Positions 1,628-6,377 of a stretch of 53,194 bases of DNA are shown here, piece by piece. The notes under the pieces were generated by a model that saw only the letters and a program-made list of their open reading frames with translations, made no database searches and was not told the DNA's origin. Every line of letters begins with the position of its first letter. Position 1 is the first letter of the stretch. The stretch covers positions 1-53,194 of the forward strand of contig CANFYL010000004.1 of the NCBI GenBank assembly GCA_947451285.1, read 5' to 3'. A program made the position numbers and the translations under genes. The stretch is from Comamonadaceae bacterium. GTDB lineage: Bacteria; Pseudomonadota; Gammaproteobacteria; Burkholderiales; Burkholderiaceae_C.

Positions 1628-3169
1628 TCAGGCGCGCAGCTTGAAGCGTTGAATTTTCCCCGTTGCCGTTTTGGGCAGCTCCTGCACAAACTCTACCCAG
1701 CGGGGGTATTTATAGGGTGCCAATTGCGATTTGACGTGTTGTTTCAAATCATCGGCGCTGAGCTGCTGCCCCGATTTGAGGACCACAAAAGCCTTGGGCT
1801 TGGTCAGTCCATCGGTGTCGGCCAAGCCCACGACCGCAGCTTCCAAAATGCTGGGGTGCGTCATGAGCGAAGCTTCGACTTCGAAGGGTGATACGTAAAT
1901 GCCACCGACCTTGAGCATGTCGTCGCTGCGACCACTGTAGGTGTAGTAGCCGTCAGTGTCGCGGATGTATTTGTCCCCACTGCGTGTCCACTCGCCCGCA
2001 AAGGTAGCCTTGGTTTTGGTTCGGTTGTTCCAATACATGAGGGCGGAAGTAGGTCCGTTAATTTGGAGTTCTCCAATCTCACCGTCTTTGCATTCTTGGC
2101 CATCTTCTCCCACGAGGCGCAGTGCATAACCCGGCACGGCTTTTCCTGTGGTTCCATAGCGCACCTCACCAGGACGGTTGCTCAAAAAGATGTGCAGCAT
2201 TTCGGTGGACCCAATGCCGTCCAAGATTTCGCTGCCGTATTCAGCGGTCCATTTTTTGCCAATCTCTGCGGGCAAGGCTTCGCCTGCACTGGTGCACACA
2301 CGCAGATTCAAGGCAGATTTTTTGGGACGTTGCGGATCCGCCAGCATCGACGCATACAAGGTGGGTACACCGTAAAAAATAGTCGGTTGATACTTGGTCA
2401 AGATGCCAAATACATCGGTTGTTGTGGGGCGCGCAGGCAGTAAAACTGTGGTCGCGCCGACAGCCATGGGAAAAGTGAGCGCATTGCCTAATCCGTAAGC
2501 AAAAAATAGTTTGGCCGCAGAGTACACAATGTCTGAAGCTTGAATGCCCAAGACTGCTTTGCCATATAACTCAGCGGTTTGAATCAAATGGCTGTGAAGG
2601 TGGACGGTGCCTTTGGGTGAGCCCGTGGAACCGCTGGAATAAAGCCAAAAGCACATGTCATCTGGATTGGTATTCAAGCAAATTGGCGTGGCATCTGCTT
2701 GGGCTATGAGTGATTCCAATGACAATTTGGACCCCGTTGATGTTGAATCTGACACGATGACAGTTTTCAAATCTGGGAGCTGACCGATCAAGCCTTCAAA
2801 TGCCGGCAGCAATGTGCCAGACACCACCAGAGCCTGCGATCGCGAATCACGCAGCATGTACTCAAAATCTTTGGCGGTCAGCAGGGTGTTGGTGGCAACA
2901 GGCACCACGCCAGCCAGTATGCAACCCAAGAACACGACAGGCCACGACGGTGTATCTAGCATGCACAGCATGAGTCGTGTTTCTGGCGTTACACCATGGG
3001 CGCGCAGGACGTTGGCAAACCGGTAAGCTTTTTCGGTCAGGGCGCCATAAGTCAAGGTGTGTCCCGACACGGCATCGATGAAAGCCGCCTTGCCTGAGTG
3101 GGAGGCGTTGCGCTCCAATAGATCTTGTGCTGCGTTGTAGGAATGATTTATGTTGATGATTGGTTGCAT
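1628..3169 (-). CDS. Benzoate-CoA ligase family protein
   Basis: AMP-forming acyl-CoA synthetase of 513 residues that activates an aromatic acid, probably benzoate, to its CoA thioester at the cost of ATP going to AMP. Visible motifs are the P-loop-like YSSGSTGSPKG, the benzoate-ligase-type SAAKLFFAYGLGN, the GIGSTE adenine-binding segment, the YTYSGRSDDMLKVGG hinge and the C-terminal PKTATGKIQR lysine motif. The ATG at 3167-3169 is chosen because AGGAG precedes it with good spacing; an upstream start at 3193 has no such site. No other box-pathway gene is present in the window. Specificity for 4-hydroxybenzoate is the main alternative, given that pobA is close by. Confidence 0.9.
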   Translation of the reverse strand: MQPIININHSYNAAQDLLERNASHSGKAAFIDAVSGHTLTYGALTEKAYRFANVLRAHGVTPETRLMLCMLDTPSWPVVFLGCILAGVVPVATNTLLTAKDFEYMLRDSRSQALVVSGTLLPAFEGLIGQLPDLKTVIVSDSTSTGSKLSLESLIAQADATPICLNTNPDDMCFWLYSSGSTGSPKGTVHLHSHLIQTAELYGKAVLGIQASDIVYSAAKLFFAYGLGNALTFPMAVGATTVLLPARPTTTDVFGILTKYQPTIFYGVPTLYASMLADPQRPKKSALNLRVCTSAGEALPAEIGKKWTAEYGSEILDGIGSTEMLHIFLSNRPGEVRYGTTGKAVPGYALRLVGEDGQECKDGEIGELQINGPTSALMYWNNRTKTKATFAGEWTRSGDKYIRDTDGYYTYSGRSDDMLKVGGIYVSPFEVEASLMTHPSILEAAVVGLADTDGLTKPKAFVVLKSGQQLSADDLKQHVKSQLAPYKYPRWVEFVQELPKTATGKIQRFKLRA

Positions 3170-3178
3170 GTTGTCTCC

Positions 3179-3192
3179 TGCACTAAACTGCA
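3179..3192 (-). promoter_or_regulatory. TGCA-N6-TGCA motif, possible BoxR/BzdR-type operator
   Basis: On the minus strand the motif TGCA-GTTTAG-TGCA ends within the ribosome binding site of the benzoate-CoA ligase gene, and a third TGCA follows 10 bases later across the start codon (3165-3168). From memory, BoxR and BzdR, the benzoyl-CoA-responsive repressors of Azoarcus, bind TGCA direct repeats with this spacing. The position would suit repression of the ligase. No boxR gene lies in this window. Confidence 0.45.
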
Positions 3193-3249
3193 ACTTTATC
3201 CAAATTCGGCAATATATTTCATCGTGGTTTCCCCGGGGTCAACTCAGGC

Positions 3250-3255
3250 TACAAT
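3250..3255 (+). promoter_or_regulatory. Probable -10 element of the tRNA-Pro promoter
   Basis: TACAAT lies 10 bp upstream of the mature tRNA-Pro 5' end, a common spacing for tRNA promoters. I see no convincing -35 hexamer 16-18 bp upstream, so the promoter is only partly supported. Confidence 0.4.
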
Positions 3256-3264
3256 AAACCTGTT

Positions 3265-3341
<77 letters not shown>

Positions 3342-3350
3342 ATTAATAAT

Positions 3351-3377
3351 AAAGGCCCCACACGGGGCCTTTTTTTG
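3351..3377 (+). terminator. Rho-independent terminator after tRNA-Pro
   Basis: The inverted repeat AAGGCCCC / GGGGCCTT with a 3-nt CAC loop is followed by a run of T (3370-3376). It sits 9 bp after tRNA-Pro and only 7 bp before tRNA-Arg. Confidence 0.85.
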
Positions 3378-3383
3378 TGTATT

Positions 3384-3460
3384 CTGCCCGTAGCTCAGTT
3401 GGATAGAGCAACAGCCTTCTAAGCTGTGGGTCGGGGGTTCGATCCCCTCCGGGCAGGCCA
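3384..3460 (+). tRNA. tRNA-Arg(UCU)
   Basis: A 77-nt cloverleaf. The acceptor stem CTGCCCG pairs with CGGGCAG, followed by discriminator G and an encoded CCA at 3458-3460. The anticodon stem ACAGC/GCTGT closes loop CTTCTAA, so the anticodon is TCT. The D-arm GCTCAGTTGGATAGAGC and the T-arm GGTTCGATCC are intact. There is no room for its own promoter after the preceding terminator. Confidence 0.97.
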
Positions 3461-3471
3461 ATTTCTCAAAT

Positions 3472-4389
3472 TTAATTGAACAACCAATCAGGGTTGAGCG
3501 CCACGTAACAGTTTTTCTCACCCAGCAATTGCCCTTGGGGGGAGACGCAAAATGCGCCGCGCTGGTATTTGTTTTCATCCGTCAGCACGTACGAACGATA
3601 AATATCTTGGCTGTGCTTACCGGTTTTATCTTTTGGAAACAGCATGACTAAACGGGTTGCGCCACATTCACCAAGGTGCATGCAAGCCACGGCAGCCTTC
3701 TGGTTGGGGTAAAACTCGATGTAGACCGCGCCGGGGAACTTCGTATTGGGTTTAGCAATCTTCACCATACAGGGCTTGTCTTGGGCGCGCGGCAAGCCCA
3801 TCCGGTCAGCGAAAGTATTCATTTCATTGAAAACGATCGTCTTGTATTTGGTGGTGACCACATCTCTGCATAGGTAATAGTCCGCCATTTTGGTGCTTCG
3901 GGCAATGGCAGTGAAAGGACGGTTGTTGACGTCGAGTTTGATGATGTCGGTGCTATAGAGCTGGCTGAGAACAGGAGCCTCCTTTTTGGACTCTTTGCCG
4001 TGGCCATCATTCTTTTTTTTGTCGTCTTTTTTCTTTTCTTCCTTTTTGGCGTCATGGCCGTCGCCGTGACCATCATCTTTCTTTTTTTCTTCAGGCTTGC
4101 CGTGCGCGTCAGGTTTGGCGTGAGGGTCTTTAGGCTCCGCTTTAGGTGGCGGTTTAGGTTCTTCTTTGGGAACCGGTTTAGGCTCTTCAAATGGGTCTTT
4201 GGCTACGCGTTTGTAGGTGTACCCACGTGCTTCTTCGCCTTCCTCCTCTACATACTTTAACTTTTTCTCTTCTTTGGTAGGTTCTTGTTTCTTGGGTTCG
4301 CTAGCTTGTACAAGCGTGCTCTGTCCGCTGAGCGAGAAAACCAGCACACAGAGCAAGACAGAAGAAAGAAAAGAGGGAGGCAACTTCAT
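3472..4389 (-). CDS. Secreted six-cysteine domain protein with Lys/His/Asp-rich linker (family not recognised)
   Basis: Predicted 305-residue exported protein. Residues 1-29 form a signal peptide ending VQA. Residues 30-138 are very rich in K, E, P, D and H (several GH and DGHG units) and look disordered. Residues 145-305 form a compact domain with cysteines at 174, 207, 236, 242, 281 and 294. The neighbouring upstream gene encodes the same domain with nearly identical cysteine spacing, so three disulfides in an oxidising compartment are likely. The ATG at 4387-4389 is preferred over a GTG at 4422 because it gives a clean signal peptide; neither has a strong ribosome site. Function is unknown. 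The linker might bind metal or anionic polymers, which is only inference. Confidence 0.8.
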   Translation of the reverse strand: MKLPPSFLSSVLLCVLVFSLSGQSTLVQASEPKKQEPTKEEKKLKYVEEEGEEARGYTYKRVAKDPFEEPKPVPKEEPKPPPKAEPKDPHAKPDAHGKPEEKKKDDGHGDGHDAKKEEKKKDDKKKNDGHGKESKKEAPVLSQLYSTDIIKLDVNNRPFTAIARSTKMADYYLCRDVVTTKYKTIVFNEMNTFADRMGLPRAQDKPCMVKIAKPNTKFPGAVYIEFYPNQKAAVACMHLGECGATRLVMLFPKDKTGKHSQDIYRSYVLTDENKYQRGAFCVSPQGQLLGEKNCYVALNPDWLFN

Positions 4390-4462
4390 ATCAATAAGGG
4401 CGTATCCCCTAAAGATCGACACCTAAAGTGCTGTCTTTAATTGGAACTGACTATCGCATGGC

Positions 4463-5110
4463 TCAGTCGACGCTGTAACAGGTGGTATCGCTGTGTAATT
4501 TGCCTTTGTCAGTCACGCAATGTTGAGAAATTAATTTACGCGACATATCAGACAAGAAATAAGACCGATACAAGACCTGGCCTTTAGGAATCAAACTGAT
4601 ACTGCGGAAAATTGGACATTGCTCGTTACGAATGCAGGCTGTCAAACGTTGTTGGTTGGTATAGAGATGAATGCTGATGCGTCCTGGGGTGAGGCTCTTG
4701 GTGGTGCCAATGCTGACCACACAGGCGTCACCTTTGACGAAAGGCATTTCATTGAGTTCGGCAAAGTAGTTCAGCTCGGCAACCAGCAACTCTTTGAACC
4801 ATGGCGCCACTATGCCATCGCACTCAAAGTAATCAAGTTTGGTGGTGTGAGCAATCATTTCGGTAAATGGTTGGTTCTTTGGACCCAGCAACAACATGGG
4901 TTCCTTGCCTGATTGAGGTGGTCTAGCCAAGATGGCTCTGGATGCTGTTGGCGATGCTGGTTTACTGAAATTAGGCTCGCCGCTGCCGTTGGGCGTATCG
5001 CTTTTTTGAACTGGGTAGGGCTTGTATTTAGGCTCGGGCTTGTCCTGCGCAAAGACGCTTGCACCGACGCACAGGATCAGGCTCGTCATCAGACAAAACT
5101 TCTTTAACAT
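4463..5110 (-). CDS. Secreted six-cysteine domain protein, paralogue of the next gene (family not recognised)
   Basis: Predicted 215-residue protein with a signal peptide (residues 1-21, ending VFA), a short Pro/Ser-rich linker and a C-terminal domain from about residue 72. Cysteines at 97, 130, 159, 165, 198 and 211 match those of the following gene product with gaps of 33, 29, 6, 33 and 13 residues, against 33, 29, 6, 39 and 13. Shared segments include N-x-PFT, TK-x-DY, a YxNQ-x4-AC-x5-C block, YRSY-x-L and CY near the end. It lies 73 bp upstream of its paralogue on the same strand and is divergent from a lipoprotein gene. I know no function for this family. Confidence 0.8.
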   Translation of the reverse strand: MLKKFCLMTSLILCVGASVFAQDKPEPKYKPYPVQKSDTPNGSGEPNFSKPASPTASRAILARPPQSGKEPMLLLGPKNQPFTEMIAHTTKLDYFECDGIVAPWFKELLVAELNYFAELNEMPFVKGDACVVSIGTTKSLTPGRISIHLYTNQQRLTACIRNEQCPIFRSISLIPKGQVLYRSYFLSDMSRKLISQHCVTDKGKLHSDTTCYSVD

Positions 5111-5210
5111 AGGTCAATACATAGGTTGTAACAAGTCCAACTTTATCAGCAAGTTCCGTCTCATAAGACTTGTATTCAAGTAAAGTGTCTAAAAACCGAT
5201 GATTTAAACC

Positions 5211-6377
5211 ATGCCCCAATATTTCCCAAAATGGATGCTGCCCTTATTGTTTGCTTTGAGTGGGTGCGGCGGTGGCAGTGGCGGGCTTCCAACTCCGCCA
5301 TTGGCTGTGTTGGATATGTCGTACGCGAATAAAAACTCGATCTCGTTGGACTTACCACAAATTCCATCGACCGTATTGGTAGATGCGGTGCCTGAGTCGA
5401 TTACTTTTGGGGATTTTTTCCAAGAAGGTTCGTACTCAGCTTTCGTGGTGGCCCCTTCCTCTGCCACCACCTCAGGATTTCAGGCGCATTTTTTAAAAAA
5501 AGATGTGTCAGGCTGGCATGAGGCCACATCTACATTGCTTGAGACAACCCAAGCGGATGCGTGCCCATTGGTCAGGCAGGCCTTGACTGCAGATTTCAAC
5601 GGTGATGGCAAACCTGATGTGTATTTGGTCTGTCGTGGCGCGTCGATAGGAGTCGCGACACCTCAAGTGTTGTACTTGAGCACGGCTGGGCAAAACAAAT
5701 ACACCCGAACAACAACCACGAATTCATTTGCGGCGCTGCATGCCTCTGCCGCTAACCTAGATCGAGACACCTCGGGCCGAATTGACATCATCACTGTCGA
5801 TGAGAGTTTTCAAATCAGTGTTTTGATCAATGGTGGAGCTGCTGTTTTTTCAAAAGAAGATAACTCATCAACGCATCGTATTCCAACAGGTTTGCCCAAC
5901 TCGGTCCAGAGAGTTTTCTTAATTCCGTCGACCATTGTCAATGCCACGGACGGGCCTGATTTGGTAGTCGCTGGCAGCTTGACCAATGGGTATTCATTGA
6001 TGTGGCTGAAAAATGATGGAACAGGAAGGTTTACCACTGCGACGGCTGGATGGTCCCGAAGTTTTGCTAACCCCATCAGCGGCGGTGGTTCTTTGATGCC
6101 CTCAGATTTCATTAAATTAGGAAATTATTTTTATGTATTGGATGACGCGCTGAAACAATTTGTTCGATTTGATGCGCCAACGACTGTTTCATCACTTGTC
6201 ACCAGTGCTTTACCTTTGAGTTCGGTGCAATCGACCAACAATCAACCAAGTGTTTTTCCAAAGCAAGTCAAACTCACTACGTCCGGGTTCGTTGCTTATG
6301 ACGGTAAATGTGCCGATACGTCAACAACTACGGCATCTAGTGCAAGTCGTTGCAATTTTTTAGCAAATGCGCCTTAA
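5211..6377 (+). CDS. Lipoprotein with FG-GAP/VCBS-like repeats
   Basis: Predicted 388-residue lipoprotein. A short signal sequence ends in the lipobox ALSGC (Cys19) followed by a glycine-rich tether. The body has at least two calcium-loop-like repeats, DFNGDGKPDV at residues 128-137 and LDRDTSGRIDI at 183-193, plus a later LKNDGTGRF, as in beta-propeller FG-GAP or VCBS proteins. Such proteins usually sit at the cell surface and act in adhesion or binding, but no partner is known here. The start at 5211 keeps a lysine before the hydrophobic stretch; the ribosome site is weak. It ends 2 bp from the convergent GST gene and is divergent from the six-cysteine pair. Confidence 0.78.
   Translation: MPQYFPKWMLPLLFALSGCGGGSGGLPTPPLAVLDMSYANKNSISLDLPQIPSTVLVDAVPESITFGDFFQEGSYSAFVVAPSSATTSGFQAHFLKKDVSGWHEATSTLLETTQADACPLVRQALTADFNGDGKPDVYLVCRGASIGVATPQVLYLSTAGQNKYTRTTTTNSFAALHASAANLDRDTSGRIDIITVDESFQISVLINGGAAVFSKEDNSSTHRIPTGLPNSVQRVFLIPSTIVNATDGPDLVVAGSLTNGYSLMWLKNDGTGRFTTATAGWSRSFANPISGGGSLMPSDFIKLGNYFYVLDDALKQFVRFDAPTTVSSLVTSALPLSSVQSTNNQPSVFPKQVKLTTSGFVAYDGKCADTSTTTASSASRCNFLANAP

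Follow-up and report, generated by a model that had tools for sequence, protein, structure and literature searches.

A tandem pair of putatively exported six-cysteine proteins, confined to one bacterial genus in the genomes searched

What role is played by two adjacent genes whose products look exported and end in the same unfamiliar cysteine-rich domain? The question is raised by positions 3472–5110 of a Comamonadaceae contig (CANFYL010000004.1), of which 53,194 nucleotides (nt) were analysed and are referred to here as the window. A first-pass annotation had placed two such genes there, and both were found, on the minus strand. Gene A (3472–4389, 305 amino acids) may be considered in terms of a signal peptide, a long linker rich in K, E, P and H, and a C-terminal six-cysteine domain (3490–3966, minus strand; profile match E = 3.0e-56). 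Gene B (4463–5110, 215 amino acids) encodes a signal peptide, a short linker and a domain of the same kind (4466–4927, minus strand; profile match E = 2.1e-66). The domain spans about 155 residues in each protein. By eye, the N-termini read as signal peptides of the Sec type, and both proteins are putatively exported. Along the minus strand B comes first and A follows after 73 nt if translation of A begins at the ATG at 4389, the start preferred here on inspection, or after 40 nt if it begins at the GTG at 4422 given by the gene-finding script. The two genes would be transcribed together, and they are the sole family copies in the window's own genome, which is 62% complete.

The claim that the C-terminal domains of A and B are homologous was borne out by BLASTP (184 columns, 28% identity, E = 1e-24). 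The cysteines of A (C174, C207, C236, C242, C281 and C294) are spaced 33-29-6-39-13 and those of B (C97, C130, C159, C165, C198 and C211) are spaced 33-29-6-33-13, exactly as first reported. Relatives were collected by an iterated profile search in the window's genus, which gave 158 family genes in 76 genomes; four with a short match were dropped, leaving 154 domains. All six cysteines are kept in each of the 153 domains that cover all six columns, no further cysteine intervenes, and the strong constraint proposed for these six is evident, with the qualification that the collection is biased towards six-cysteine columns because the search profile contains those columns. A proline and an arginine are likewise invariant, each in all 154 domains. 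A chance arrangement of cysteines was considered and is ruled out by the BLASTP score together with this conservation. The six cysteines may form three disulfides; a CxxC motif is absent, as none of the gaps in 33-29-6-33-13 or its variants is 3. The idea that a single 6-residue insertion separates A from B is right for the A lineage to which the window belongs (24/62 A rows) but not for the other A rows, which are spaced 33-30-6-33-13 (36/62) or 33-30-6-34-13 (2/62). The A protein itself ends in NPDWLFN, and a conserved PDWLFN tail closes all nine A proteins by which the window's lineage is represented in alignment A2 (window 3472–3500, minus strand).

The domain could not be matched to a known family, in agreement with the first-pass annotation, which had called for the profile hidden Markov model search that was then run. 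For A and B, nothing in Pfam or NCBIfam exceeded the cut-off. When 57 family members were compared with the libraries, only scattered matches were returned (best E = 0.018 for Pfam, 0.0075 for NCBIfam and 0.0023 for PHROGs), family membership being assigned by a profile match over the curated cut-off or, for PHROGs, by a clear E-value. A sequence search of the PDB identified no relative of the domain. Weak TonB-like and ZIP-like matches were dropped as reflecting linker composition, and membership of the thioredoxin/DsbA-like proteins is not indicated given the lack of CxxC and of a Pfam thioredoxin match. A literature search of partial coverage, made by titles and the openings of abstracts, returned no description of such a six-cysteine family.

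AlphaFold2 predicts one alpha+beta fold for both domains rather than two different ones, with the same core order of strands and helices. The predicted local distance difference test (pLDDT) and predicted template modelling (pTM) scores were 73.6 and 0.75 for the A domain and 81.9 and 0.81 for the B domain. Searches with both models gave weak matches to monellin and cystatin-like folds, with Z scores too low, and too closely tied with unrelated entries, to claim one fold; the lack of a firm match is an absence of matches and no proof of a new fold. There is no detectable sequence relationship to single-chain monellin or the cystatin-like proteins (PDB: 8jz1, 5o7l, 3lh4). Relative to that fold, the six-cysteine domain has a second helix and C-terminal strands in addition; monellin lacks the six cysteines.

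The family falls into three groups. Group A proteins have a long charged linker and group B proteins a short one, and both are soluble; group C copies are solitary and mostly carry a lipobox, recognised by eye in 11 of 18. At least 18 C copies exist among the matches listed, and 18 were fetched. In a tree of the 154 domains, a branch supported at 100/97 separates all 62 A rows from all 62 B rows, and the A/B duplication is therefore older than the divergence of the sampled genomes. The duplication is thus ancient and neither local nor recent. The solitary copies form one clade (17/18, support 97/99) on the B side, apart from a single long-branched copy (L091) on the A side; since some long branches meet, as the tree program warned, the inner order is unsure. 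The ratio of nonsynonymous to synonymous substitution rates (dN/dS) was 0.059, 0.071 (dS 2.7) and 0.086 for A and 0.112 for B in the four unsaturated family comparisons, 10 of the 15 printed comparisons being saturated. The flanking acyl-CoA dehydrogenase gave 0.02. Thus, the family is under purifying selection, yet it evolves faster than the dehydrogenase.

The window's genus appears to be Limnohabitans. With a 57-member profile, the family was found in 77 of 84 genomes of this genus, and in 37 of the 40 of good quality; two weak partial matches in G348 were left unclassed. Outside the genus, no credible match was obtained from any of the overlapping samples searched. Among 399 genomes of the taxonomic family (141 genera) there were six matches, all within the genus; among 399 genomes of the order and 398 of the phylum (213 genera), only the window's own genome gave a credible match. 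One match in an order genome (G603, E = 7.4e-4, 45 positions) was discarded as spurious, as it contains three in-frame stops. A single-sequence search of 299 genomes of the taxonomic family likewise gave four matches, all in the genus.

Seven genomes of the genus gave no match, and the acyl-CoA dehydrogenase flank was fetched in five of them. In G363 and G371 the contig stops before the expected place of the pair, and in G350 it starts inside an unscanned open reading frame (ORF) at the lipoprotein's place. Two cases look like true absences at the site: in G325 the pair is missing between the dehydrogenase and the tRNA-Arg that comes after it, and in G310 the dehydrogenase neighbour is followed by transporter-like ORFs and no pair. 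The remaining two, G339 and G374, gave no flank. With 77 of 84 genomes positive, three of the seven absences at contig ends and no credible match elsewhere, the family belongs to the core of the genus, and the label of an accessory system is not supported. A mobile or phage origin was rejected, as B had no tblastn match in plasmids or phages. The tRNA-Arg neighbour recurs, but other lineages have different flanks. Signs of an integrated element were not seen in searches that were limited to these plasmid and phage look-ups.

The layout of the pair is operon-like. In the 64 loci, from 64 genomes, that had exactly two family genes on the stretch examined, both genes lie on the same strand in every case, with a gap of -25 to 185 nt (median 63) when measured from the first possible start codon given by the script. 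There are 12 more rows of type A or B that stand alone, each either close to a contig end or with a partner missed by the gene-caller. Since the gene-caller overlooked or truncated some genes (B in L094 and L140, A in L170 and rhodanese genes in L074, among others), the pair counts are lower bounds.

Upstream of B in the window lies a divergent lipoprotein gene (5211–6377, plus strand), confirming the surface-type lipoprotein first noted beside the pair. It has an LSGC lipobox, recognised by eye, a Gly-rich start and FG-GAP repeats (PF13517, 36 bits against a cut-off of 26.9), and it is a probable functional neighbour. The intervening 100 nt (5111–5210, no strand) are by position the presumed site of both promoters; a scan of 3150–5400 found no sigma-70 consensus and was uninformative. 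The gene upstream of B is visible in 60 of the 64 loci and is divergent in 44, often encoding a propeller-type protein. A survey of pair and lipoprotein across Burkholderiales had been proposed; the association recurs, but in the samples searched the family occurs in a single genus. The remaining 16 upstream genes are co-directional, a class that may conceal a missed gene where gaps are long (for example 910 nt in L100 and 1665 nt in L153). The 44 divergent proteins match FG-GAP_3 (19), NHL (17) and lactonase-type propeller models (6), sets that may overlap. A loose Cys-Gly pattern near the N-terminus is present in 43 of the 44, of which at least three (L103, L152 and L163) look like start-site artefacts. 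When the window's protein and its 43 counterparts are compared (alignment A5), the site is seen to hold an FG-GAP, NHL or lactonase-like protein according to species. The position stays fixed while the surface protein encoded there, which mostly starts with a Cys-Gly run, may change rapidly or be swapped. The divergent neighbour belongs with the FG-GAP and NHL propeller-type lipoproteins; the six-cysteine proteins do not.

On the other side of the pair, a tRNA-Arg(TCT) gene (3384–3460, plus strand) adjoins A, as first described, and is convergent with it, and a tRNA-Pro(TGG) gene (3265–3341, plus strand) lies beyond; neither is a working part of the system. Of the 56 loci with room for one, 31 have a tRNA-Arg no more than 150 nt downstream of A, always convergent. 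In some genomes a same-strand protein of 303–321 amino acids with a similar start (MQV.S...) precedes the pair (L092:4584-5549, L108:6985-7914, L109:5335-6246 and L112:6579-7490; also L131, L132, L142 and L179). The two members scanned (L092 and L109) had no Pfam match.

The explanation favoured, though held tentatively, is that A and B are disulfide-locked envelope binding partners that act with the propeller-type lipoprotein. It is preferred because of the putative export signals, the fixed cysteines, the tight tandem pairing and the frequent lipoprotein neighbour. In this scheme both proteins would be made from one operon, B first, and exported. Whether periplasmic or on the cell surface, they would most likely work as an obligate pair, one that has probably stayed together from a time before the sampled genomes of the genus split. 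The six cysteines would fix the small alpha+beta fold, and the pair may contact and serve the divergently encoded outer-membrane lipoprotein as partner subunits or accessory factors. Three observations weigh against this explanation. The lipoprotein has diverged far more quickly than the pair, with an identity of 40% to its G344 counterpart and 23% to that of G302. It is also not obligatory, because the 16 loci with a co-directional upstream gene have none divergent next to B. Finally, sulfur and thiol genes beside half of the C copies are unexplained by purely structural cysteines.

These C-copy neighbours make extracytoplasmic sulfur or thiol handling the strongest rival, a possible reading if a less probable one. 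The cysteines would bind, accept or sense persulfide, thiosulfate or oxidants outside the cytoplasm, the C lipoproteins would relay sulfur between exported rhodaneses and importers of the YeeE/YedE type, and A and B would be a second deployment of the same chemistry. In G300, two C copies (L074 and L075) are each flanked by two rhodanese genes, one gene of each pair having a lipoprotein-like start; the similar operons (L074 5527–6854; L075 5261–6588, minus strand) comprise a membrane rhodanese, the six-cysteine lipoprotein and a rhodanese with a lipoprotein-like start, with membrane and lipid anchors judged by eye. Rhodanese is not rare in this genome, however, with 20 matches. In G340 and G358 the C gene adjoins a Sulf_transp gene of the YeeE/YedE type, with a second such gene beyond. 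The arrangement resembles the SoxT1A-adjacent periplasmic thioredoxin, which is likewise (PMC11582611) an exported cysteine-containing protein beside a YeeE/YedE-type transporter; that protein is a thioredoxin, whereas the six-cysteine family has neither the motif nor the profile match of one. An OsmC gene adjoins C in G335, G356, G331 and G376, four genomes with only two OsmC matches apiece, and beyond it lies the gene of a pyridoxal phosphate-dependent enzyme, read here as of the cysteine-synthase type. In G334 the neighbour is a thioredoxin. Altogether, 9 of the 18 C loci, in three types of context, have such neighbours. The other nine adjoin hemerythrin-domain genes (4), a ring-hydroxylating (Rieske) dioxygenase (2) or other genes (3), and the A-B pair has no sulfur neighbours in the Pfam-scanned loci. 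The missing CxxC also counts against a thiol chemistry, as do six invariant cysteines, even in number as in structural disulfides; moreover, the pattern was noticed after the fact and serves only as a lead. In the four hemerythrin loci (L077, L078, L081 and L083), C directly follows one hemerythrin-domain gene and a second is divergent from the first; two of each gene were scanned and the remainder assigned by clustering. A bolder version, in which an undescribed envelope domain defines Limnohabitans and forms a thiol or sulfur relay outside the cytoplasm, is unlikely: C lipoproteins would shuttle sulfane sulfur between the exported rhodaneses and the importers of the YeeE/YedE type, and the A-B pair would do likewise or sense it at the surface with the propeller lipoprotein.

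Two further readings are weaker than both the envelope-partner and the sulfur explanations. The weak fold matches could point to secreted inhibitors, in which disulfide-rich domains of the cystatin/monellin-like kind would act against the proteases or lysozymes of competitors or of protists that graze on the cells. This is improbable; the QxVxG motif that marks cystatin inhibitors was absent when the A and B sequences were read. Least probable is that A binds or buffers metal, with a His-rich linker loading the domain. The A linker is rich in H, D and K in the window's lineage and 11 of 63 A linkers have at least eight His; most have few (median 3), B linkers have almost none (median 0, maximum 1, 48 linkers), and the Zip and ZrgA matches are weak, below the cut-off and within the low-complexity linker.

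Limnohabitans is reported to dominate in fresh waters and to lose many cells to bacterivory (PMC12697174, PMC3591437). Conserved, exported-looking, nearly universal in the genus, found only there in the samples searched and divided into three paralogous groups, the family makes a good candidate for an envelope trait that defines the genus. Exported families restricted to a single genus are in themselves common; this one is of note for its near universality, its ancient three-way split and a testable link to sulfur chemistry. With the C-copy operons, that link becomes a concrete, testable hypothesis of sulfur handling.
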